A model generated the notes under the pieces. The model had not been told where the DNA came from. It did no database searches and was given only the letters and a program-made list of their open reading frames with translations. The translations under genes and the position numbers were made by a program. From Chromera velia (Eukaryota; Sar; Chromeraceae), in contig JAHBMJ010000918.1 of assembly GCA_018398765.1 (NCBI GenBank), forward strand, positions 40,806 through 73,081: 32,276 bases of DNA, in the 5' to 3' direction. This document shows, piece by piece, positions 1,552 through 29,776 of this stretch (position 1 is its first letter; each line of letters begins with the position of its first letter).

Positions 1552-4357
1552 AACCCATGCAGATGCTGATTGTTGCAGCATGGAAGGCCCGACAAACTGC
1601 ATGTATTGTCAATGAAAGGAACCATAGAGTTCTTCCAGAAGAAGCATGCACGCATTGCAACAAGAGGGCCTCAAAAAGTGGTTTTGCTATCCATGCAAAC
1701 AAAACAGATTGCTGTCCTTAAGGAACCTGACGCACGCAACCGACCCTCAGAAGGTTTTCAGCCGTTCGCCATTGCCTCAGTGCCCCCCCTTCCTCAATCT
1801 TCTTCTGGCTCATGTTCGCTCTGTCACACAAGAGAACTGCCAGGACGCTGGTCAGCTCTTTTTCTCCCTTTGGCGCCGCTCCCCCCTTCTCAAGGAGAAG
1901 CTGCAGAAGAGGCGCGTCCCCCATCTGACACACCTTTGACAGAAGCGACAGAGGAGGAACTATCCCACCCACCCCCTCCGAAGGAGACTGAGCGGCTGAC
2001 GAACATTTTCCCCCGTGAGAAACCAAAAGCTTCACCACTGAGAAGATGTGCTGAAGCAGTTCTGGGCCCTCCGGTTCGGTTCGTGGCACGCTCTCGCACA
2101 GTGCCGCTTCGAGGGGGGACATCAGAACCTCCTTCCCATACTCACCACTCGCCAGTCCACACTCATTTGCATCCACCCCTTTCTCCAAAAGCAGGCAGAC
2201 TCTTAACAGGCTTCTTAGGCTTCTTGACTGACAGCTTTTGCGGACAGCTTCAACTAGGGGCACTCGTCGCGGCTCCGGTTTGTCTCTTCTTCCTACCCCC
2301 ACCCCCACCCCCTTTTCAAGAAGAAACACCAAAGTGGGAGGAGAGCAATCACACTTGCACGCAAGAGAGAGTGCCGAGTGACCGTCCTCATTCACAGAAC
2401 TCAGATCTGCCCCCCGCTCCACGAGTGCCTCTAGAAGTTCGACTGCAACAGACGCGTCATTCTCGTTAGAGCCGACAGACTCCAACACAAACGCAACAGG
2501 GGAGATGGGATTCACCCCCCTCCGGTGTGTCTGAGCCTGCGTGGCTGGACCTGTTGGCGCCGCCGCATTAGCTGCGCCAAATAGGCCCTGGGCCGGTGGG
2601 TGGGGCATGGGAGCCGGAACAGGCGGGACCCCCATCGGAAAGGGGGAAGGGGCCAACGGAGGAGGAACCTGAGGAGGATGAGGAGGACCCGGTAGAACCC
2701 CTAAAGCTGCGAGTAGAGCGGCGTGAGCGGCGTTCATGTCCACCCCCCCCGGGGGCTGAGGCTGAAAGTCAGCGGGGCTGTCCACCAATTCCCCGGGAAG
2801 ATTCGGATCTGCCCCCCCTTTGCTGAGGAATAGACGCACGAGGTCTGGGTCTTTGGCCTCACAGGCGAGGAGCAGTGGGGAGATTTTGCTTGTAGACACG
2901 GACGGAGAAGCGGACTCCTGAGCCTCAGCTTCTGTGGCAAAGGAACACTGGGCACCATTTGAGACAAGGAGTCTTGCAAGGCGTGTTGCAGTGTTGCGGG
3001 ATTCTGCTGAAGAGATGTTTGGGCGGGGAGGACCGGAAACGATTCTCCGCATGACAAGCTGTAAGGGGGTGTAAGACTTTCCATTCATCATGACAGTTAC
3101 TTTCGTTTTCGCTTTCCATTTCAACAGAAGGGCGAGCACAGGCTCGGAGTCACACAGAAGTGCTTCGACGAGGGGTGAACGATTGGCGAAATCAAATCCC
3201 CTCTTCACTTTCTCTGGCAGTGCTCCGTTTTTCAGAAGAACTTCCGCGCTCTTCTCCATGCCCAACGCGCATGCCAAGGAGAGAGGGGAATGCCTGTCGA
3301 ATCCTTTCTGCACTCGGTTCAGATCAATGCCCTTCAGTGACATGAGTGCTTGGAGAGTATCTTCGCACTGGGTGTCGATCAGTACATTTGTAATACCTCG
3401 TGACCCTCTTTGGTCGCTGGCCACTTTCTCGAAGACTAGGTAAGGAACCTGCCCCCCCTCCCCTTCCGCTAGAACACCATTAGTTGCATCGATCAGCACC
3501 CTCACAGCCTCGGTGTCTCGGTACGTGCAGGCCAGGCCGAGAGCAGTGTACGACTCTCTCGGTGCCCCCGTGTCGAGGAGCGGCTGCTCTCGACGGGAAT
3601 TTCGGGCTTTCCAGTGCAGATACCCCGACGCCTTTGCCGCCTTTGCCATGCGGCCAAGCAGAGGGAGACCCTTCTCTCTGTCGTGCCCATTCTCAGAGGC
3701 CGACTTTCGGAGGCGGATGCCTAGAAGCCTGACTAAGGTGTGAAGAGGGGTATCCGGCTGCATCCGAATCTCTCCTTCAGAGGACGCGCCCCAGTAGAAT
3801 GTGTCTACACGTGCCCCGGCCTGCAGAATTCGCTCTGCCGCCTCTATATTGCGCACACCAATCGACAGCTGCAGAATTTGGAGACAGCATAGATTACTGT
3901 CCCAAACCCATGAGTCTGGACTCACAATGCCGTGCTCAATTAGGTGAGACACCCGCTCTGCCGACAGGTTAGACACTTCTCTTTCCGAAAAATCGGCGCT
4001 GAGGGAAGTGGGACCCCTCTGCGTCAGGAACTCGACACACTTCGCCGAGTTGGGGCTTTTCTTGAGACATCTTTTCAGAAGAAACGGGTAGCGCCCCGAC
4101 ACTCCATTGAGTGCAAGTACCTGTTGCAGCGCCTTGACGTCATCCTTTTCGAAGCAGGCGTCCATAAGGACGGAAACCTCTTCCCTCTCAGAGGCCGAGG
4201 AGAACCCAAGACACACACTGCCCAACCCGAGAGTTGTCGTGTTGTCTCTTAGAGACAGCAGCTTCTTCGAAACAGCAGAGACCTTCCAGAACGTCCGAAG
4301 GCCCAAAAGCCCGCTTGCTATCAACACATTTAATACCTCACCGTCCTTCGCAACCAT
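791..4357 (-). CDS. Ankyrin-repeat protein with F-box-like N-terminus, two exons
   Basis: The large exon runs from an ATG at 4357 to about 1730, and a second exon runs from about 1423 to a stop at 791. Acceptor AATGCAG|GAG at 1423 is phase 0. Several phase-0 donors are possible near the end of exon 1 (for example AGG|GTCGGT), so the exact junction is open. The protein is roughly 1,080 aa. Residues 7-35 (LIASGLLGLRTFWKVSAVSK) resemble an F-box. Then come many degenerate ankyrin units such as SPLSLACALGMEKSAEVLLK and TALGLACTYRDTEAVRVLID, ending in short forms like ALLDRGVDVN in exon 2. A Pro/Ala-rich spacer of about 80 residues (near 530-610) splits the repeat array. Ankyrin arrays bind protein partners. 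If the F-box is real, a role as an SCF ubiquitin-ligase substrate receptor would follow, but that is inference. Two-exon continuity rests on ankyrin sequence on both sides of the intron. Confidence 0.83.
1517..1547. repeat. (CA)n microsatellite in the ankyrin gene intron
   Basis: About 15 uninterrupted CA units lie between the two ankyrin exons. Read on the gene strand it is a (TG)n tract about 100 bases upstream of the proposed 3' splice site. Confidence 0.95.
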
Positions 4358-4691
4358 CTTTTTTCTCCCGTGTGATTCCGGGGAAGAGGTGTTCGCAGAG
4401 CAGCCAACGATCGAGACTAAATATGAGGAGCGCCGGCTCGTGTGGGAGCTGTCGGGAAAAACGGTTCACAAGAATGACAGGCAACCAAAATCAAGGTCAG
4501 TCTGTTGAGCCAGTGGACAACATTGGTTGTGCATACAAACGTGCTTACTTTGACGCCAGAAACTGTCCGGCCAGCTCAATGGAGTAGAAGTGCATCACAC
4601 GTTTAGAGGGAATATAGAACTTCCTCTGGCGAAACGGGACTTGGGCACGATGCACAGTTCTGTCCGATCGATTAATTGTTACCGTTGCAGG
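4358..4691. other. Upstream region of the ankyrin gene
   Basis: No coding sequence is recognised. The stretch precedes the ATG of the minus-strand ankyrin gene and probably holds its promoter and 5' untranslated region. No TATA box or other defined element could be supported. Confidence 0.4.
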
Positions 4692-16138: not shown

Positions 16139-16379
16139 ATGGGGGAAGGCAGTCTGCCATGGCCTGACACCATGGGAGGACTTGCTGGGGGATTTTGGGC
16201 TCCGAAGAAGAGGAAAGACAACGGGAAGGACAAGGAGAAAGAGGCAGCCGGCACTGAAGTGCTCACCGACCGGATCGCAACTGAAAAGTACTCAGGGTAA
16301 GTCGAAAGGCGTGCACATACTGAGTCCAAACACGAAGCTTTCAAACTCTGGTATATGAATCGATTTTACATATATACAT

Positions 16380-16446
<67 letters not shown>

Positions 16447-19400
16447 TCCGTTGATGCAGGTACTTTCTGGATTCGGATGCGGAGACAGAGTTCGTTCAAG
16501 TGAACCAAGGGCAGAGAAGGCTTTGGCTTCTCTTGACTGCGTTCTTCTTTCTTTTTCTGGATGCGCTGTTTTTTGGACTCACTTACAGCCAGGAAGATTT
16601 CGTGAACACTGTGCGCAAATCAATAACAATGTCGTCGGCCGCCTTTCTGATGGGCATCGGTTTCTGGTATCCGTTTGCTCCTTTTCTGTTCGAAAAATTG
16701 GTGGCAGGTGGGATTGTTGTCTGGGTCTTTTCCATGACCATTCTAAGGGAAGGCATCATTGTTCCTGTCGCCGAGACCGAGGACTTGTTGCAGAGGGAGA
16801 TTCTGACTTTGGCACTTGACATTGTTTTTGTGGTAACGCTGCTGATGGTGATACCTCTGCGGCGACCGACACTGCTCGCTGTAGTTGGGTTGGTGTTCGG
16901 GATCCAAATTGCCGCAGGGGTCTGTCTCGTGACAGTGAATGGACTCGAGGGCGGCATTGAACCGACACCCATCTTCGGCGCATTGGCGGCTTACATGGTC
17001 CTCTTCGCTGTGTCACTCATTCTGGCCAGAGAAGAGGTGAGGGGGTGTTAGTATGAAAAAGTGGATTGGTATGGGTGAGTGTCCTGTTTTGGTCGGAGAG
17101 GAAGTGCATAATGTGCGGTGCCTCCAAACAACAAGAGTAATGATGCAGTGGCAGCAACCAAATCGACTCTGTCGATCTATACCAGAATGCGTACGTGCCT
17201 ATCTCAAAATACCTTTGAGCCAACGCTACAAGGTGTCGTCAGTCCTTTCTGCGTACTTTGCTCTCGCATCCCCAGAGATAGTACTTTTCTTCATGTAGAT
17301 TGAACAATGCAGGTTCCCTTTCTTTCTCTGCACGATCAATCGCTTTGCTTGCAGCATGCCACCAGAGTGATGTTCTTCAACGTACAGAACCAAAAATTGA
17401 GGATCGACCAGCTCTTGGACGAGGTGTACGGGCTGATTCGTGTCAAGGGCACATCCAACAACCAGGCTACCTCCTCTGCGGAGAGACTGGTGGGACTTCT
17501 CACAGGCGCAATTGAGGAACTCAGGTGGCAAGAGAATGTCATGAGAGCTCAAGTGACTCACTCAACAAGGTGCGAAGATTGGTAGGGTAGGAGGATGGCA
17601 GGGTGTCGGAATCGGCACAGAGAAGCAGGGACGCCATGATGGAAACCATTGGAAGAACTCGCGGCCTCTTTTCTCTTCTTTTCATTTCTGCATGTTCTGA
17701 ATTGCCTTCGCTTCTCTCTCGCACCTTCCAAAGTCTCTCTCAATTCTGTCTATGCAGCTGCGTATATCCTGAGTCCAGCGGATGTCCCTTCAATTCTTTG
17801 CTCAGTTTCTTGGCTTTTCTGCCTGCCGTTGCCTCCATTTTTCCCTGCATATGCGTACAGGGTGGGCAAGTCGACTCTGTGACGTCGAGACGAATTGCTG
17901 AAACGACGCGAAAGGTCATCAAGGAAATCTCCGAGGCCGCCGCTCTCGCTGCAAACGCAGAGAGTTTTACGCAAGTCGACGTCAAGCAGGCAAGTTTGGG
18001 TTCATTGGGGCATGTTTCTCTGGCTGGTGGGTGCTTGCACAATAGACAGACAGATGCATGCACTCACATGTACTTAAAAAGACAGGATGTCGCTCAGAAG
18101 GAAAGGAAGAAGGAAAAAAGGAGAGGAGAAGACTGAAGAAACCATTCAGACAGGAGAGGAAAAAAATACTGTCCAGAGCAAAAAATCATGCAGGCTCCCA
18201 GATGCTCAAACCAGGAGCGCGAAGAGGCAGAACAGAGCCCTTCGAGCAAGATCACTGTCTCCCTTTCGTATTTGTTCTTTTTTTTTGTCTTTTTGTTCCT
18301 TTCGATCGAATCTACCGGCCATTCGTCGAAGCACAACTCGCGAAATCTCTAGCTGAGATTTCCATGTCGGCTTCTGTGCAGATCTCTTTTTTCTAAGCAT
18401 GTAAATTCCTCCACAAAGACATGTGCACAAACGTCAGCGATATCACCGCTAGCCCTTTGAAAGAGTCAAATCCAGAGATACGGTAGAGAGCTCCGATGCA
18501 CGTTGAAGAACTCTCTTCCTCTCTCTGTATGCCCTAATCTCTTTTCTTCTTCTTCTCTTTTTACTTCTCCAGATGATCAAGCGAGCGCACAGAGACTCTC
18601 AGCAGTTGCCCCTCGACGTTGACGACCCCCAAAGAGAGACCAGTCCCTTCTCTTCCCCAATGCCAATCAACCACCTCTACGCAGGAGGAGATAATAGCGA
18701 TACGGAGGGTGACGCTCTCCAAGGTCTTCCCCTCATGACCTCAGAGGAGGAGGGGGTGATGGTTCACTTCCTCTCCTCCAATTTCACGCGTCAACGAGTC
18801 TATGCACATCCTACGGGTGGGGCCGTATCTCGACGAAGGTCTTCCGTGTTCTTTCCGGGAGACGAGGTGGCGCCCCCACCTCCAGTGAGGTCTGTGTCGT
18901 GTCAACAGAGGGTAGAGGAGGAGGTCGACCGGCTCCTTTCGCCATTCGAACCTCTGATTCCCTCTTCGTTGGGAAAGAGACCCCCCGACAGTCACACGCA
19001 CGCTCCAAAACCTCAGCTGCAGCTGTGTGTGTATGAGGAGTTGAATGGGAAGAAAGAAAGAGAACAGGCTGACTTAACGAAAGCAAGTGCACTGGAGTGG
19101 AATACCGATATCAAAGAATTGGAAGAGAGAGACAACGAAATCAATTCAGCCTTCTCTCCTCGAAGAGTTCCACTCCCATCGGGCTCAGGTTTGAAAATCA
19201 AAAACACACTTCCCATAATAGGACTCCAACTACTCCGACCTTACCTTTCCGACCCCCTCAACTTGAAGGACCTCTCTCCAGTCCTCAATTTCGTCCATCT
19301 GGTCGGTCAGTCAGTCAGCCAGTCATGTCGTTCTCCCCCCTCCCCAACGCCCCGCCCCCCACACATACACATTACGCATACAGAGGGAGGGGGTGAGGGA

Positions 19401-19690
19401 GAGAGAGAGAAGGGAAAAAAAAAAAAAGAAAGAAACAAAAAAAGAAAGAGAGAAAAACGGAAACGGTGGGTAGACGAAACGAAAGAACGAAAGCGACAAA
19501 ATTTGATTTTCTTCCGCACTTTCGTTTTCTGAATCTGCGATTCGAGCGTCAGTCTTCCGGCCCTTGGCAGACTTTTGAGCACTTTCTTGCTCTCTCCATG
19601 AGAAAATCAATTACATCAAATCAATCCATTCAGGTCAAAGCGAACCACTCCAAAAAGGCAAAGTACCATAACTCGATTCATGGCGCTGAG
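16139..19690 (+). CDS. Membrane cyclic-nucleotide phosphodiesterase, 5' part only
   Basis: Exons: 16139-16296, 16460-17036, 17355-about 17552, 17861-17989, 18573-19301, 19634-19690 (about 616 codons). Exon 2 encodes six hydrophobic helices (for example LWLLLTAFFFLFLDALFFGL and IFGALAAYMVLFAVSLILA). Exons 3-4 encode a helical linker. Exon 5 has an acidic Ser-rich linker with a basophilic-kinase-like RRRSS site, then LEWNTDI and LPIIGLQLLRPYL, as at the start of a PDEase_I domain. Exon 6 reads YHNSIHGAE, the conserved YHN..H motif that supplies the first metal-site histidine region. Six helices followed by a PDE domain is the layout known for Plasmodium and Toxoplasma PDEs, which hydrolyse cAMP or cGMP at membranes. 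The exon 4 donor looks like a GC-AG intron (CAG|GCAAGT). The exon 3/4 junction is ambiguous. The HD motifs and the rest of the catalytic domain are not found before the window ends. Confidence 0.85.
16384..16441. repeat. (TA)n(TG)n microsatellite in the first PDE intron
   Basis: About 14 TA units run directly into about 15 TG units, ending 18 bases before the acceptor TTGATGCAG at 16459. On the transcript this forms the region just upstream of the 3' splice site. Confidence 0.95.
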
Positions 19691-19701
19691 GTGAGTGCTC
19701 A

Positions 19702-19926
19702 AACGATAGAAAAAGAACTATGGAACAGATTTTTTACATCATTTCTAGAAACATAGGCTGCCATATGCTGCCATACAAATTTTGTAAGTTTCATAATCGT
19801 TTCATACCGTTTTTCTTACTATTCAAAACCGTTAAAAAATGGCCTCAAAATCAAAAAATTTGTATGACAGCCTATGTTTCTAGAAATGATATAAAAAATC
19901 TGTTCCATAGTTCTTTTTCTATCGTT
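19702..19926. mobile_element. Foldback (MITE-like) element next to PDE exon 6
   Basis: Left arm 19702-19781 and right arm about 19851-19926 are near-perfect reverse complements (aacgatagaaaaagaactat at the outer end). They differ by a single base change and a short duplication (gccatatgctgccatac versus gtcatac). The loop is about 70 bp. It contains no coding sequence. The element begins 12 bp after the GT donor of PDE exon 6. No clear target-site duplication is visible. Confidence 0.75.
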
Positions 19927-20989
19927 ACAACGTCTTTTTACACAAAGTTTCAGCTTCTAACTCCTTACCAATTATGAGAACAAGTTTTTTACGGAAATGC
20001 GCCGCTTTAGGGGGGCAAAAAGCACCCCACTCGCCCCCGGCATGCGAGATGGCCTTTGAATGATGGTTACTGACCCAAAATGACCTCTAACCGGGTAACC
20101 CGTAACATCACGAAGCGACAATGCTGCGACATGTATTTAACCCCCATAACCTATAACACAATGAATAACCCACACCAAAATTTTGTGTTTTTTGGAAGTA
20201 ACTCGTCAAGCCGCACCTGAAAAATATTTTGTTACTAAAAAACCAAATGAAATTTTCACTTTTTTTAGTTATATCAGCTCTAAAATTTAGTATACACATC
20301 AGAAATGCTGCCCCCTAGAGTTATTTTTATAATAAAGTCTGACCACAGACTTTAGACTTTAAAACTTCTTTGGTTTTAAAACTTTAAGAATAAAAAGCTT
20401 AAATACATTGATGTATTAAAATTGTTTAGAATTGTTTAGCTATGTTCAACCTTTTAAAATATTTTTCAATGTATGACAAAAAACTATAAAAAACCTTTAA
20501 AGTGCGTTTCAAAAGTTATATTTTAGAGTCTACAGACCAAAACCAGACTTTAAACTTTATTTCACTTTAAATACCCCCCGGGCGCTAGTCAGATTTTGTA
20601 GACTCTTTCATACCACTTACCGGCCTTTTCCCATGAAAAAAACAAACCACCGGCAGTTTTCTACTCAAAAACCGCTTCATACCGGATTTTCCCTGAAAAA
20701 TAATATTTATAAATATTTATATTATTATACATATATATAGTGAAAAAGAAGTTTGTAAAAATAATGACATGGTTCTAGTAGAGTAGTAGTAATTAAATAT
20801 TGCACTATAAAATGATATATTAAAATTATTTTAAAGTATCTTTTCTTAGAATTTTTCCTAAAAAAGAAATTTGAAGTCATTTATCCTCCATTGAAACATC
20901 TTGCTGCATCTGGCCGCGTTTTCCTTGCGCTAGCTGCTGGCACAGTGGCACATCAGAGTTAGAATCGTCCCAACCTGACCCGAACTGGT
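19927..20989. other. AT-rich non-coding region
   Basis: No gene is seen. It contains T- and A-rich stretches, repeated 'actttaaa'/'tttaaagt' phrases (20340-20570) and two copies of a 'ttcatacc...accgg' phrase near 20611 and 20683, similar to 'ttcatacc' in the loop of the adjacent foldback element. This suggests further decayed repeats. Confidence 0.5.
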
Positions 20990-21500
20990 CACAGAGCGGC
21001 TGAGTGGCTGGCTGACTTGCGCTGACTTACTGGTTGACTGGCAGGCTGACTGACAGGCTGACTTACTGACAGACTGACTGACTGACTGACTGACTCACTG
21101 TCTGGCTGACTGACTCGCTGACTGACTGACTTATGACTTACTGACTGACTGACTAGCTCACCGACTGACTGGCTAAATCTGGCTGACTCACTGGCTTACT
21201 GACTGACTCACTGACTGAGTGACTGACTCATGACTGACTGACTGACTGACTGACTGACTCTCCGACTGACTGGCTGACTGACTAGCTCACTGACTGACTC
21301 ACTGACTGACTAACTGACTGACTCACTGACTCACTGACTCACTGAGTCACTGACTCACTGACTCACTGACTCACTGACTGGCTGACTTGCGCTGACTTGC
21401 TGGTTGACTGCCAGTGGCTGGCTGACTGGCAGACTGACTGACTGGCTTGCTGGCTGACAAGCTGACTGGCTGACTGATTGACTGGCTCAGCCTGGCTGTC
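20990..21500. repeat. GACT tetranucleotide array
   Basis: About 500 bp of tandem CTGA/GACT units with interspersed variants (GGCT, CACT, TACT, AGCT). Read on either strand it gives Ser/Gln/Val-type open frames that are not genes. Confidence 0.95.
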
Positions 21501-21883
21501 AGTGAGTGATTGACGGAGGGGCTCACTAGATCTGACTGGCTGCATAACTGCCTCCGCTTCGCGTAGATGGCAGGACATGACAGGAGACTGCAGGAGATGG
21601 ACAGAGATGGATTCTGACGGAAGGAGACGGCTTAGTCCCTCCCTCTACAAGTTGCAAAGAGAGGCTGGGCAGAACACTATCTTCATTTTAGCTCTGGTCT
21701 CGGCTGCAGAGCCTCCGGTGCAGACTACCAAGTTGATGGAAAAAACATGAGAAGACATTGAAAGACATGAGAGACCGGACTCATCGGGACTCATGCACAA
21801 ACACCGATGATCAACGAACGATGTACATGCACGCATGCGTCCATACACATGTCACGTCATGCCTCCGATAAGGTCTATGCAAG
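21501..21883. other. Low-complexity flank of the GACT array
   Basis: No gene is seen. From 21560 to 21640 there are irregular repeats of 'gacaggaga/ggagatgg' type, then unique sequence with ATGC-rich alternating purine-pyrimidine stretches (21820-21850). Confidence 0.5.
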
Positions 21884-22035
21884 CGGCGCCGGCCTTTGGC
21901 GCCCACCGGCAAGGTCCACGCAGCGCTTTGGCACCCATCGGCAGTCACTGTATCCGGGCGGCGCCTTCGGTGCCTACCGGTAGTTTCCCGGCGGCGCCTA
22001 CGGCACCTACCGGAAACTTCTCCGCCCACCGGCAT
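21884..22035. repeat. GC-rich degenerate minisatellite
   Basis: Four to five units of 30-40 bp share the frame GGCGCC...GGCGCCTACCGG(C/T/A)A with inner variation (ctttggcgcccaccggca, cttcggtgcctaccggta, ctacggcacctaccggaa). Each unit has a short internal palindrome around GGCGCC. Confidence 0.7.
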
Positions 22036-22460
22036 CTTCCCATTTCAAAAACGGCTTTCTGACCACTTTTTTTGAGAGGCCCTTCCCAGGACGCTAGACA
22101 AGGGGACTCGCAGTCCTCGGAGCCCACTTCTTCTGCTTTCCCGTCACTGTTACAGAAAAACCTCCTAGAGGCCATTAGGTCAGCGCTGAAAGGCTCAGCA
22201 CAGGGGGTTACAGGGTGGTAGTATGAGCACCTAGGCTTTTTCCTCCCCAGAGATAGCTCAGCACAGACGCGGCTAAGGGGCTGCACTCTACATATAGGTA
22301 TATCATGACCCCTGACTTTAAAGAAAAACAGACAAAAATCTAGGAATGTTATGCAAGAAGTTTCATAAAAAACCAAAAACTATAAATTACAGAGAACATG
22401 ACAGTAACATTAGTTTTTATGTTGGGCTAGAAATATGCATTCATTTTTATGAAAAACTTC
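22036..22460. other. Non-coding spacer
   Basis: No gene is recognised. Open frames on the minus strand over 21945-22376 partly reuse the minisatellite and lack family features. Confidence 0.4.
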
Positions 22461-23068
22461 GTGTCGCCAGGTTTTGTTGGGCTGTTGGGCTTGTTATACT
22501 GTTGGGCTTCACCTTGCCAGGAAGCTGTTGGGCGCCCAACATGCCCAACAAGAAAGCCCAACATGGCCCAACAGCCCAACAAACACTCCCAATATGCATA
22601 ACACGTACAATCATGATGATGAAAATGATCTGGAAGAATACTAGAACAATATAAAACACTGTTGGTGTTCTAGCAGTCAGCCCAGGTCGCCAGAGAGGAC
22701 CCGGAAGCAGCAGCACCAGCCGCCTCTTCCCTCTCAACCCATATTATCCATTTTTTTCCAAACAGTCCCCTCTCTGAATAATATTGTGTGTGCAGGTTTG
22801 TCTCAATTTTCTTTGGTATATTGTGAACGTTTTACGAAGAGTTTCAGGCTCATACTGCACTAATGTGCAGCGCTGAATGTCTTAAATGGTGTCTGTTGTA
22901 TTCATATGCTTTGATACGTGGACCTGGCGTGTAAGACAAGCTTGTAGGGAAGGGAAAGGACCTTGTTAGGCTCTGTTGGGCACTGTTGGGCTTCATGACC
23001 TGTCATGCAGCTGATAAAAGGCCCAACAGAGCCCAACAGGCAACAAGCCCAACAGAACCTGGCGACAC
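22461..23068. mobile_element. GTTGGGC/GCCCAAC repeat element with inverted ends
   Basis: Ends 22461-22482 (gtgtcgccaggttttgttgg...) and 23047-23068 are reverse complements with one mismatch, 608 bp from end to end. Just inside each end lie clusters of the 7-mer GTTGGGC and its reverse complement GCCCAAC, at least a dozen in total, able to form nested hairpins. No protein is encoded. The right part is present again in the duplicated segment after 23412. Confidence 0.65.
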
Positions 23069-23411
23069 AACTTTGGACTGACATTTCTTAAGACTGAAGT
23101 TGAACTAGAGCTTAAAAATAGCCCAACATAACACTCTAGAATATGTTTTATCTGCTAGTTTTAACCTTATAACTTGGGATATAATATATAGTGTAAAAGG
23201 ATATAGGAAAATTTAGGGGTGAAGCATAGGTATACCCACAGTGCGGCCCCCTAGCAGGTGCGGATTCTGCGTATTGCCATGTGTTTGGCAAGAGGTGATG
23301 CCCCGGTGGGTTTCATATCACTGCTGGCGGGGGGAAGGTGCTTTGCTTTGAAGAAGAACGCACAGGGAACGGAGGTGAGACCGATTGTAGTGGGGGATGT
23401 TCTACGAAGGT
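22536..23411. repeat. First copy of an exact 876-bp duplication, likely assembly overlap
   Basis: Compared by eye with 23413-24288 the sequence is identical, at an offset of 877, and the two copies are separated by a single N at 23412. The copy ends abruptly inside the reverse transcriptase frame. This is the signature of two contig ends joined without merging their overlap. Confidence 0.92.
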
Positions 23412-23412
23412 N
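23412..23412. other. Single-N scaffold join
   Basis: One ambiguous base lies exactly between the two copies of the 876-bp sequence, so it marks a contig junction rather than a base-call problem. Confidence 0.95.
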
Positions 23413-24288
23413 CCAACATGCCCAACAAGAAAGCCCAACATGGCCCAACAGCCCAACAAACACTCCCAATATGCATAACACGTACAATCATGATGATGAA
23501 AATGATCTGGAAGAATACTAGAACAATATAAAACACTGTTGGTGTTCTAGCAGTCAGCCCAGGTCGCCAGAGAGGACCCGGAAGCAGCAGCACCAGCCGC
23601 CTCTTCCCTCTCAACCCATATTATCCATTTTTTTCCAAACAGTCCCCTCTCTGAATAATATTGTGTGTGCAGGTTTGTCTCAATTTTCTTTGGTATATTG
23701 TGAACGTTTTACGAAGAGTTTCAGGCTCATACTGCACTAATGTGCAGCGCTGAATGTCTTAAATGGTGTCTGTTGTATTCATATGCTTTGATACGTGGAC
23801 CTGGCGTGTAAGACAAGCTTGTAGGGAAGGGAAAGGACCTTGTTAGGCTCTGTTGGGCACTGTTGGGCTTCATGACCTGTCATGCAGCTGATAAAAGGCC
23901 CAACAGAGCCCAACAGGCAACAAGCCCAACAGAACCTGGCGACACAACTTTGGACTGACATTTCTTAAGACTGAAGTTGAACTAGAGCTTAAAAATAGCC
24001 CAACATAACACTCTAGAATATGTTTTATCTGCTAGTTTTAACCTTATAACTTGGGATATAATATATAGTGTAAAAGGATATAGGAAAATTTAGGGGTGAA
24101 GCATAGGTATACCCACAGTGCGGCCCCCTAGCAGGTGCGGATTCTGCGTATTGCCATGTGTTTGGCAAGAGGTGATGCCCCGGTGGGTTTCATATCACTG
24201 CTGGCGGGGGGAAGGTGCTTTGCTTTGAAGAAGAACGCACAGGGAACGGAGGTGAGACCGATTGTAGTGGGGGATGTTCTACGAAGGT
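23413..24288. repeat. Second copy of the 876-bp duplication
   Basis: Identical to 22536-23411. This copy continues without interruption into the retrotransposon reverse transcriptase, so it is the one that preserves the native context on the right. Confidence 0.92.
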
Positions 24289-26519
24289 GGGTTACGAGAG
24301 CGATCCTCTTGGAGTTCGGTCCTCAGTTCGAGAGGCACCTTGGCCCCCTGCAGTTTGCTGTGCGCACTAGAGCAGGTACGGAAAAGTTGTTTCGGTGTGT
24401 ACAAACGTGCCTGCAGCGTTCTCCTTCATCTGCTGTCTTCAATTTAGATGCATCCAATGCCTTCAATGCTTGCAATCGTCAGGTAGTCATGGACGAGCTC
24501 CATGTACATTTTCCCCATCTGTATACATTCTTTGCGCTACGGTACGGAACCCCTTCCAATCTGGTGTTCAGGGATCAGACAGGTTTCTTGCAAAAGATCA
24601 AGTGCGAAGAAGGTGTGCAGCAGGGGGATGTAGTAGGGCCCCTTTTATTCTGTCTCGGGCTAAAGCCTTCCCTCGATGGTGTGTTGGGGGATCTGCAGGC
24701 TAAGCATGGAGGAAAGAGGTGCTTTGTCGGTGCTTTCATAGACGATGTCTCCATGGTTTTCCCTCTCCACCCCCTATCTCAGATTCCTGCAGATGGACAG
24801 GACGACAGTATCCTGCATATATGGAGGGTGAGTACGGCTAGGTTGCACAGCTTTGGGCTGATGCTACGGCCGGACAAGAGCTCCGTTCATTCTCCCTCAT
24901 GGCAGCCCATGGTAAGCTGCCCGGCAGCCTACCCTTCTCCCCCTGGAATCTCTCCCTCTCTCACAGGTTTCCGTCTTTATGGTGCGGCAAGTGGGACGGT
25001 GCAGTATCAGAGTGAACACTTCGATAAAAAACTGAAAGAGGCGCGGGAGCTCAGTGAGGCAGTCAAAGAGTATGGGGACCTGCAGGGGGCTCACCTCCTG
25101 ATGTATTTCTGCGTTCTCCTAAAGCTGATTTACCTCACGAGAATCATGGAAGACGTCATCACGTCGGACGAGTGGTCGTGTGCTGATAAGGAGTTAGGCG
25201 AGTCGTGGGCATGCATCATGGGTTTGTCAGAGCAGGAGTGGGGGCAGGGAGAAGTACGAAATCAAGCCTACCTTCCTCAGTACTAAGGGGGTCTGGGTCT
25301 TACTTGTTTTCGCACAACCGCGACGGCAAGTTTGTTGGAGAGTTGTGGAGTTACGTTGTCTGACGTGGTTCAGCGACTGACAGACCAGGCTTTCCTCGGT
25401 CAGGGCCAGGCACCAAAAAGGGAAGCCTTTTCAGCTCTTCCCTGGCTACAGGCATCCAAGCGCGAGTTTGACTCAGAGAGGGCAGAGGCAGCGGCGGAAT
25501 CGGTGAAGCTCAAGGCAAACCATCCGTTAAGACACGGGTGGAATTCTATGTTTGACGTTTGGTGGAGAGCGTTATCCGGCCAAGAATAGCAGAAAATTAC
25601 CAACGCCATTCACCGATCGTGCAGAGTGTATCTTTTTTCGAAGGTGCAGCTCTCTGAGCGCGTCCGCCTGCATTCCTGCTCCAGCAACGGGGCTTCAGCG
25701 TGGCTGAGTGTCATTCCCTCATCTGGTTGGCTGCGCTTCCCTCCCGCAGTTTATCGGGTAGCGATCCGCATTCACCTCGGCCTGGGCATCCCGGAGATGC
25801 GTAGGGCAGGGGTGTGTGTGTGCGGGTCTCCTCTCAACCCCAGAGGGCACCACGCACAGAAGTACCCGAATGGAGGGGGCGTGCACTGGTGCCATGAGCA
25901 GGTAAAAGGGGCGTTTATACAGATTCTGCGTGGGCTCCACCACACTCACGTACTGGAAGAAACGACCCTGGGTTATTTAGGGGTCGCTACCGATTCCCAT
26001 CTCGCTGATCAGAAGAACAAACGGGCAGACATCTTTGCCTCCCTTTCAAATGGTGACACCATCCTAGCGGATGTTTTCGTCACTTTTCCCATCTCGTCTA
26101 ATACCGCCCGCCTGCGTACCCGATCGAAAACAGCAGGGGCAGCCGCCAAGACGAAGAGTGAGGAGAAGCAGAGGAAATATGCTGTCACGGCTCGTCTGGT
26201 GGGCCTGCGATTCGTTCCGCTAGTCTTCGAGACCTTTGGACGACCAGATGGAGAGACAGTCTCTTTTGTGAAGGAGCTGGTCAGGATTACGGGTTCAAGA
26301 GCGGGTTTTTCTACGGAGGGAGAGATGAGGGCAGTCCAGGCGCGTCTCACAGACCGGTATTGGAAGGTCCTTGGTTGTACGCTGCAGCGGTACGTGGCTA
26401 TCAACGTGCTGACTTCTGCCTTTCATAGCAGGGGTCAGCGGGGTCCTTTCCAGCCAGCCTCCCTTTTGGGACGTGAGTTCTTGATACAGTTAGCGCACGA
26501 GAGGGACCGTTTTGTTTAG
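24135..26519 (+). pseudogene. Non-LTR retrotransposon ORF: reverse transcriptase plus restriction-like endonuclease, two stops
   Basis: One frame spans about 795 codons, broken by TAA at 25284 and TAG at 25587, with homologous sequence continuing in frame on both sides (LPQY*GGLGL and SGQE*QKITNAI). RT landmarks: RPIVVGDVLRR (41-51), FNLDASNAFNA (D105), GVQQGDVVGPLLF (160-172), and the catalytic box AFIDDVS (200-206). The C-terminal part has a CxC...H zinc-knuckle-like stretch near 25815-25880 in which the usual last Cys appears replaced, then RAD at 26022-26030 and ADV at 26067-26075, spaced like the (K/R)PD-x12-14-(D/E) core of R2/Utopia-type endonucleases. These enzymes copy RNA into target DNA at a nick. 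The frame opens just after a TAG at 24129 and lacks the normal N-terminal region, as in a 5'-truncated copy. Retroelement identity is firm; the clade is inference. Confidence 0.88.
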
Positions 26520-28341: not shown

Positions 28342-29403
28342 TCAAACATGACTATCAGAGCCTGCCACCGTCCACACCATGGCAGACGTGTGGCTGTTAG
28401 TGCTGCTCTCTTCCTTTGAAACTCCCGTATGCTGTCTGTCCACAGCAGGGCTGTCTGAAGGGGAAACACTGGGACTGCTCTTCCGCTTCCTCTCACCAAC
28501 AGCCCTCCAGCCTATCACTGCGGCATGGGTGTACACCCAGGTGCCGACGAGGCCAATAATCAGAAGAACGGACAAAGCAAAAAGAGTAGCAAACCAGACT
28601 CCACGAACCGTCAGTGCAGCGAAGACAATAAAAGCGACTGTCGCTGCCACTTTCAGCACAGCAAGAACAGTATGAAGCAATGCAAAGCACATCCAGAAGC
28701 CCCGTCTGTCGACACTCAGACACTGAGAGGGGGAGAAGGACCACGCGGCGATTGAGGACATCAACAACGAACCCTTGAGAAGAAGCACAACTACAATCTC
28801 GCTCACAAGCCACCCAATATTAGTCGCATAACTCATGGACATAGCAACCATAGCGATTCTGACGCCCCAAAATGCAAGCATGAGCGTGTCCCAGGCAACC
28901 AGACGCACCATCGCGGGTTGTCCGTCCCTCTCGACGACGAGTGCCGACGCTCGTACCGCAACCGTCATATAGACACCAATGCATACAGCGGACATGACGG
29001 CAAGGAGAGGAAAGACAATGAGCGCAAGGCCCCACCACCCAAGATAGACAGAAAGAAGGATGGAGACAAACATCCCCATAAGAGAAACTCCGGTAAGAAC
29101 AGCATGCAGCAGTGCAAACCCAATCCAGAAGAAGCGTGAGCTAAGCCAGCGTTGAGATCCCTTTCCCTGGCCATAGAAGCTTGCCAGCACCATGGAAGAC
29201 ATCACCAGGGACAACGCGAACAGAATAAAGCCGAAGATTTCCGTGATCACAAGCGAGGTTTCCGAGAAGGGAGCCCCCATCCTATACGCACTGAATACCA
29301 TCATGAGGACGTCAAGCACGGCGACAAGGATCACCAGAGTTCCCATGTTCTTCTTCATTTCCGCAGAGGGAAAAGTGGAAAGTTCGGCCGACGTCGTCGT
29401 CAT
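28342..29403 (-). CDS. Eight-helix membrane protein with duplicated four-helix unit
   Basis: A single uninterrupted 353-codon frame. About eight hydrophobic segments are visible (near residues 21-40, 50-76, 91-117, 121-150, 166-190, 196-222, 234-265, 267-295), followed by a charged Ser-rich tail (RKRKSSPSVSPSDSP). The two halves are related: DVLMMVFSAYRM (31) matches DTLMLAFWGVRI (172), LVMSSMVLASF (66) matches LLMSSIAAWSF (213), and FWIGFALLHAVL (92) matches FWMCFALLHTVL (236), an offset of 141-147 residues. The protein therefore arose by tandem duplication of a four-helix module. I do not recognise the family and assign no transport or receptor function. The lack of introns contrasts with the kinase and PDE genes nearby. 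A start further upstream is not needed, since MTTTSAELS gives a plausible short cytosolic leader. Confidence 0.78.
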   Translation of the reverse strand: MTTTSAELSTFPSAEMKKNMGTLVILVAVLDVLMMVFSAYRMGAPFSETSLVITEIFGFILFALSLVMSSMVLASFYGQGKGSQRWLSSRFFWIGFALLHAVLTGVSLMGMFVSILLSVYLGWWGLALIVFPLLAVMSAVCIGVYMTVAVRASALVVERDGQPAMVRLVAWDTLMLAFWGVRIAMVAMSMSYATNIGWLVSEIVVVLLLKGSLLMSSIAAWSFSPSQCLSVDRRGFWMCFALLHTVLAVLKVAATVAFIVFAALTVRGVWFATLFALSVLLIIGLVGTWVYTHAAVIGWRAVGERKRKSSPSVSPSDSPAVDRQHTGVSKEESSTNSHTSAMVWTVAGSDSHV

Positions 29404-29724
29404 CTTTCTTCGCCTTGGGGAGGTTCAGAGTGCACAATTAATGCACAGCAGTGAAGAAATAAGGAGACGGTTAAAGGTTGCTTCTTTAAGGTCGCTGATA
29501 CCAGCAAATTAAGATCCGCCAAGTCACGAACTAGCTCGAGTTGATGACGTACAAGTGAAAATTCCGACGTGCAATGAATATACCACAAACCTTAAAGAGA
29601 TCTTAAAGAGCCTTGATCCTTTCATCCAATTCAGGAAATTTCAGGAAAGGGGAGACGCGGGCCGGCCGGCTAAACATGATTAATAATTTGCTGGTTCGCT
29701 GCGCGCAAGCGCGGCCGGGGGGGG
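29404..29724. other. Upstream region of the membrane protein gene
   Basis: No coding sequence is recognised. It contains the probable promoter of the gene starting at 29403 and becomes GC-rich toward a G run at 29717-29724. Confidence 0.4.
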
Positions 29725-29776
29725 NNNNNNNNNNNNNNNNNNNNNNNNNNNNNNNNNNNNNNNNNNNNNNNNNNNN
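29725..29776. other. 52-base N gap inside a G run
   Basis: The gap is flanked by eight G on the left and thirteen G on the right. The flanks gctgcgcgcaagcgcggcc and gtgcgcgcttcgcgtgcgcg are close to inverted repeats. Sequencing probably failed on a G-rich hairpin or quadruplex-prone tract. Open frames read through the gap are meaningless. Confidence 0.95.

Follow-up and report, generated by a model that had tools for sequence, protein, structure and literature searches.

Structure of the phosphodiesterase locus

The stretch analysed here (32,276 nucleotides, hereafter the window) corresponds to positions 40806-73081 of scaffold C917 of the Chromera velia genome (177.8 Mb, 4040 contigs) and contains a locus for a cyclic nucleotide phosphodiesterase (PDE). 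Six exons on the forward strand, spanning 16139-19690, were joined in phase into 616 codons with no stops, using as a guide a paralogue on contig C1765 whose exons were read from its translations and which set the exon 3 and exon 5 donors. The first-pass annotation had stated that the six exons join well; this holds with the paralogue-homologous donors, whereas the first-choice donors for exon 3 (GTGCGA) and exon 5 (GTTTGA) broke the frame and were replaced.

Exon 1 (16139-16296), placed by the in-phase join, carries the first ATG and ends at a GTAAGT donor. Exon 2 (16460-17036), 36.5% identical to the C1765 paralogue, encodes the membrane domain as judged by the hydropathy of the protein. Exon 3 (17355-17552) shares about 55% identity with its counterpart, and its donor (GTGACT at 17553) is homologous to the GTCAGT of the paralogue. 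Exon 4 (17861-17989; 58.7% identity) is followed at 17990 by a GC-type donor, GCAAGT, the counterpart of which in the paralogue is GTCGGT. Exon 5 (18573-19301; 40.5% identity) encodes the linker ahead of the YHN motif, and exon 6 (19634-19690; 65% identity) encodes the C-terminal YHNSIHGAE; their donors, GTCGGT at 19302 and GTGAGT at 19691, are the same as those of the paralogue, so that the ending and consensus donor reported earlier for exon 6 are borne out. The sequence directly after exon 6 is GTGAGTGC. Without splicing at 19691, the frame would continue for 21 codons beyond GAE into a foldback element and then reach a stop. Elsewhere in the window, the minus strand at 1718-4465 holds an open frame of 915 codons that contains ankyrin repeats (Ank_2, E 1.5e-17).

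The 616-residue protein has five hydrophobic segments above the hydropathy threshold and a possible sixth below it. Membrane segments ahead of the catalytic domain, as in apicomplexan-type PDEs, are thus present and are homologous to those of C1765. An architecture with membrane segments before PDEase_I, and mostly six such segments in the apicomplexan PDEs of one clade, are described in an excerpt of PMC10865986. The YHNxxH motif with which the catalytic profile opens is present as the YHNSIH closing exon 6; in another PDE contig, C2536, profile position 1 coincides with the YHNxxH motif. The gene therefore resembles apicomplexan-type class I PDEs (PF00233) in its membrane segments, its linker and the start of its catalytic profile, and the C1765 paralogue in its exon structure, but its HD motif and nearly all of its catalytic domain were not found. 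It covers 9 of the 238 PDEase_I profile positions and then ends, so that the catalytic profile has barely begun, in contrast to the stop in the middle of the domain first annotated. The protein had no Pfam match at E values up to 10, as would be expected with only these 9 positions present, and a PDB sequence search with its last 148 residues gave no match at E up to 1.

The exon 6 donor

In the C1765 paralogue, YHNAVHGAE is directly followed by GTGAGT, a 315-bp intron and then an exon with the HD motif CHDLGHP, in agreement with the earlier expectation that the next exon should carry the HD motifs. A Pfam search of the genome for PDEase_I gave 83 matches on 34 contigs, in 21 of which a match begins at profile positions 5-11, near the exon 6 boundary (checked at base level only for C1765). 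In 4 contigs (C2536, C2678, C3849, and C1117) a match begins at profile position 1, and in the first three of these the sequence reads through the boundary position without an intron. An intron directly after GAE thus seems, from these sequences, to be common to one part of the family. Since the homologous codon is a splice site in C1765 and a match starts near the boundary in 21 of 34 contigs, the 19691 donor is more than a chance occurrence and very probably authentic, the base-level proof coming from C1765 alone.

The foldback element and the breakpoint

Only 11 bases of intron 6 (19691-19701, forward strand, as read from the sequence) precede a foldback (palindromic) element at 19702-20046. 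The repeats were reported earlier to begin 12 bp after the donor, and the element does begin at base +12 of the intron. Of 315 candidates for this foldback family, 40 scored, including the window copy, so that the family is represented at no fewer than 39 further sites. Among 14 other copies with flanks, 10 form palindromes of 443-460 bp, full copies being about 455 bp long. Five of these 10 (L035, L038, L040, L041, and L047) end exactly in CGCATGCC and GGCATGCG, and the ends of the other five are off by a few bases or by the alignment stopping point. The palindrome alignment of L034 covers 362 bp only, and L036 sits at a contig end. Like foldback elements or palindromic MITEs, the family is dispersed in many copies, and its inverted arms are long, with recurrent ends (CGCATGCC...GGCATGCG); it may differ from them in target-site duplications, none of which was obvious by eye in the flanks of the full-length copies.

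The window copy itself differs in having just one complete arm. It retains the centre and the right arm, including the intact right end (GGCATGCG); on the left it starts about 131 bases inside the element (1370 to 1501 with L038 as the ruler), and the left end is absent. Two of the 14 other copies, L042 and L043, also have a single arm and, in mirrored coordinates, are broken at most about 11 bases from the same point, so that an internal point of the element looks break-prone (3 of 15 copies examined, with the window copy).

The breakpoint is thus at 19701/19702, where the sequence is free of gaps, and the N at 23412 lies 3.7 kb further on. Because the window copy lacks about 131 left-arm bases relative to the full palindromes, the junction at intron base +12 cannot be explained by the plain, clean insertion of a foldback. 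A deletion or rearrangement that had one of its ends within the arm is the best explanation for the damage. Around the break, the intron of the C1765 paralogue reads GTGAGTGCACATGACGATGAGA and the window GTGAGTGCTCAAACGATAGAAA; the ACGAT common to both may be microhomology, although it is short and possibly due to chance.

Short-read assembly struggles with high-copy palindromes, and the junction might instead be a chimera that arose at the long palindrome during assembly or gap filling, with the true intron continuing differently there. We consider this unlikely: there is no N at 19701/19702, and at k=71 a spurious join would normally require a shared stretch longer than the few bases shared at the junction. 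It would nevertheless fit the published Chromera pipeline (Velvet at k=71, SSPACE, GapFiller, and IMAGE, as given in an excerpt of PMC4501334), if the present assembly is the same one.

Sequence downstream of the gene

The foldback is followed by a CTGA tandem array (21022-21484), two copies of an 876-base sequence (22536-23411 and 23413-24288) on either side of the single N at 23412, a degenerate reverse-transcriptase gene with two in-frame stops on the forward strand (24132-26519), and an unrelated 360-codon open frame on the minus strand (28342-29424) with no Pfam match at E 0.1. The retroelement of the first-pass annotation has a reverse transcriptase domain (RVT_1, E 3.9e-10), and the unrelated minus-strand gene corresponds to the 360-codon open frame. 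The description of the region as over 7 kb of repeats is upheld in part, by the foldback family, the CTGA array and the reverse-transcriptase gene, but 20047-21021 and 21485-22300 had no match when compared with C917 and 117,619 further bases.

Since the 876 bases on either side of the N are identical, the join at 23412 is probably right and represents an unmerged contig overlap, with the second copy being probably a false duplication; less probably, two copies of a repeat were joined to each other. At the other three single-N joins of C917, no exact overlap between the ends reaches 15 bases. With the breakpoint 3.7 kb upstream in gap-free sequence, the N at 23412 does not create the junction. 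The suspicion that the scaffold is misjoined at 23412 is weakened by the identical 876-base flanks, although it keeps some plausibility.

Search for the catalytic exons

C917 is 116,470 bases long, including 14,124 Ns. The rest of the scaffold was to be searched for a PDEase_I fragment according to the earlier proposal, and none was found by Pfam, tblastn or a local profile. No match to PF00233 was obtained on C917 in the Pfam search at E 0.001, and neither the HD metal-binding motif (CHDxGHP) nor the rest of the catalytic domain was found in its sequenced part. Ten catalytic pieces from 7 other contigs were compared with the whole of C917 by tblastn at E up to 10, and the output contained exon 6 (best E 0.063, the exon being very short) and scattered weak matches. 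As a positive control, the same 10 pieces gave 89 rows at E 0.001, self-matches included, against eight paralogue loci, and the HD exon of C1765 recovered seven loci on six other contigs. A local profile made from the catalytic pieces identified 4 stretches in the C1765 locus at E 1e-26 to 1e-4 (the profile being built partly from C1765), and on C917 nothing better than E 0.85 (C917_m0_32503), which was taken as chance. Within the window, no catalytic exon was found from 19691 to the end (12,585 bases, including a 52-N gap at 29725).

Two candidates were rejected. The best tblastn match on C917, at 84705-84797 (E 0.044; with another query 84708-84851, E 3.1), was regarded as chance because the FF and QGD of the matched exon are absent and the unfiltered local profile does not list it. 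Contig C3797 was considered as the missing half; it reads GAG GTG GGG without an intron at the exon 6 position, which does not fit an intron directly after GAE. This contig carries, at 65671-67769, a PDE catalytic cluster that runs off the contig end in mid-exon, and the upstream half is absent from that stretch.

Origin of the partial gene

The three options first offered for this locus, a very large intron, truncation and a misjoin, all still stand, with their weights shifted by the gap-free breakpoint and the damaged foldback arm. Tentatively, and with a little less than even confidence, we favour a 3'-truncated gene: a class I cyclic nucleotide PDE of the membrane-anchored kind would have lost its catalytic exons, leaving the 5' part of the gene. 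The foldback element would most likely have lain originally downstream of the PDE gene; a deletion or rearrangement would then have fused intron 6, at its base +11, with a site inside the left arm of the foldback, and the same event would have removed the outer left arm together with the catalytic exons in between. We infer this order of events, a deletion as the event itself and the lack of a surviving 3' half from the single locus. In favour of truncation, the next exon of the paralogue lies at a distance of 315 bp, yet nothing like that exon was found on C917 by the Pfam, tblastn and profile searches. Against it, none of the six exons or the five intervening introns is damaged, as would be more usual for a gene that still works; the damaged arm is possibly incidental, given that 2 of the 14 other foldback copies are one-sided too; and 14,124 of the 116,470 scaffold bases are N, while the genome copy may be incomplete. 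As the six exons are undamaged, the loss would have been recent or the remainder would still be constrained.

The undamaged exons also speak for an intact gene, with a large repeat-filled intron 6 and with exons 7 onward either hidden in a gap of the assembly or placed on a different scaffold. This is a serious possibility, though a somewhat doubtful one, and our estimate includes its proposed cause, either a wrong join at 23412 or the absence of small scaffolds from the genome copy. There is room for such exons in the N runs of 52, 2,500 and 7,760 downstream of the gene on C917 and at the one-N join ahead of the reverse-transcriptase gene. The published C. velia assembly is given in an excerpt of PMC4501334 as 193.66 Mb in 5953 scaffolds, compared with the 177.8 Mb and 4040 contigs used here, and the shortest contig among the loci listed has 16,123 bases, suggesting that small scaffolds may be absent. 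However, with the join as it is, the intron would be at least about 9 kb long (19691 to the gap at 29725, less the 0.9-kb duplication) and would hold a minus-strand open frame, whereas that of the paralogue is 315 bp; the exact 876-base overlap around the N speaks for the join being a true one; and a separate event would be required for the lost arm of the foldback.

It is also conceivable, although very improbable, that 19691 still serves as a splice donor, with exons 1-6 either trans-spliced to a catalytic half from elsewhere or ending in the foldback and encoding a membrane protein that lacks the catalytic domain and regulates the intact paralogues. If true, trans-splicing or such a regulator would account for the undamaged exons and splice sites. 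Truncation, a hidden intact gene and an assembly chimera would all be ordinary, and the locus most likely does not represent a new kind of system.

Significance

Genes truncated by transposon-linked deletions are a known phenomenon. The window gene resembles them in that its sequence ends inside a repeat, but here the event is deduced from a single locus and an intact version was not found. For annotation, the PDE gene should be labelled as partial or truncated, and a false duplication of about 0.9 kb is probable within 22536-24288. With breaks near one internal point in 3 of 15 copies, the foldback family may be a source of gene truncation in the genome of C. velia.
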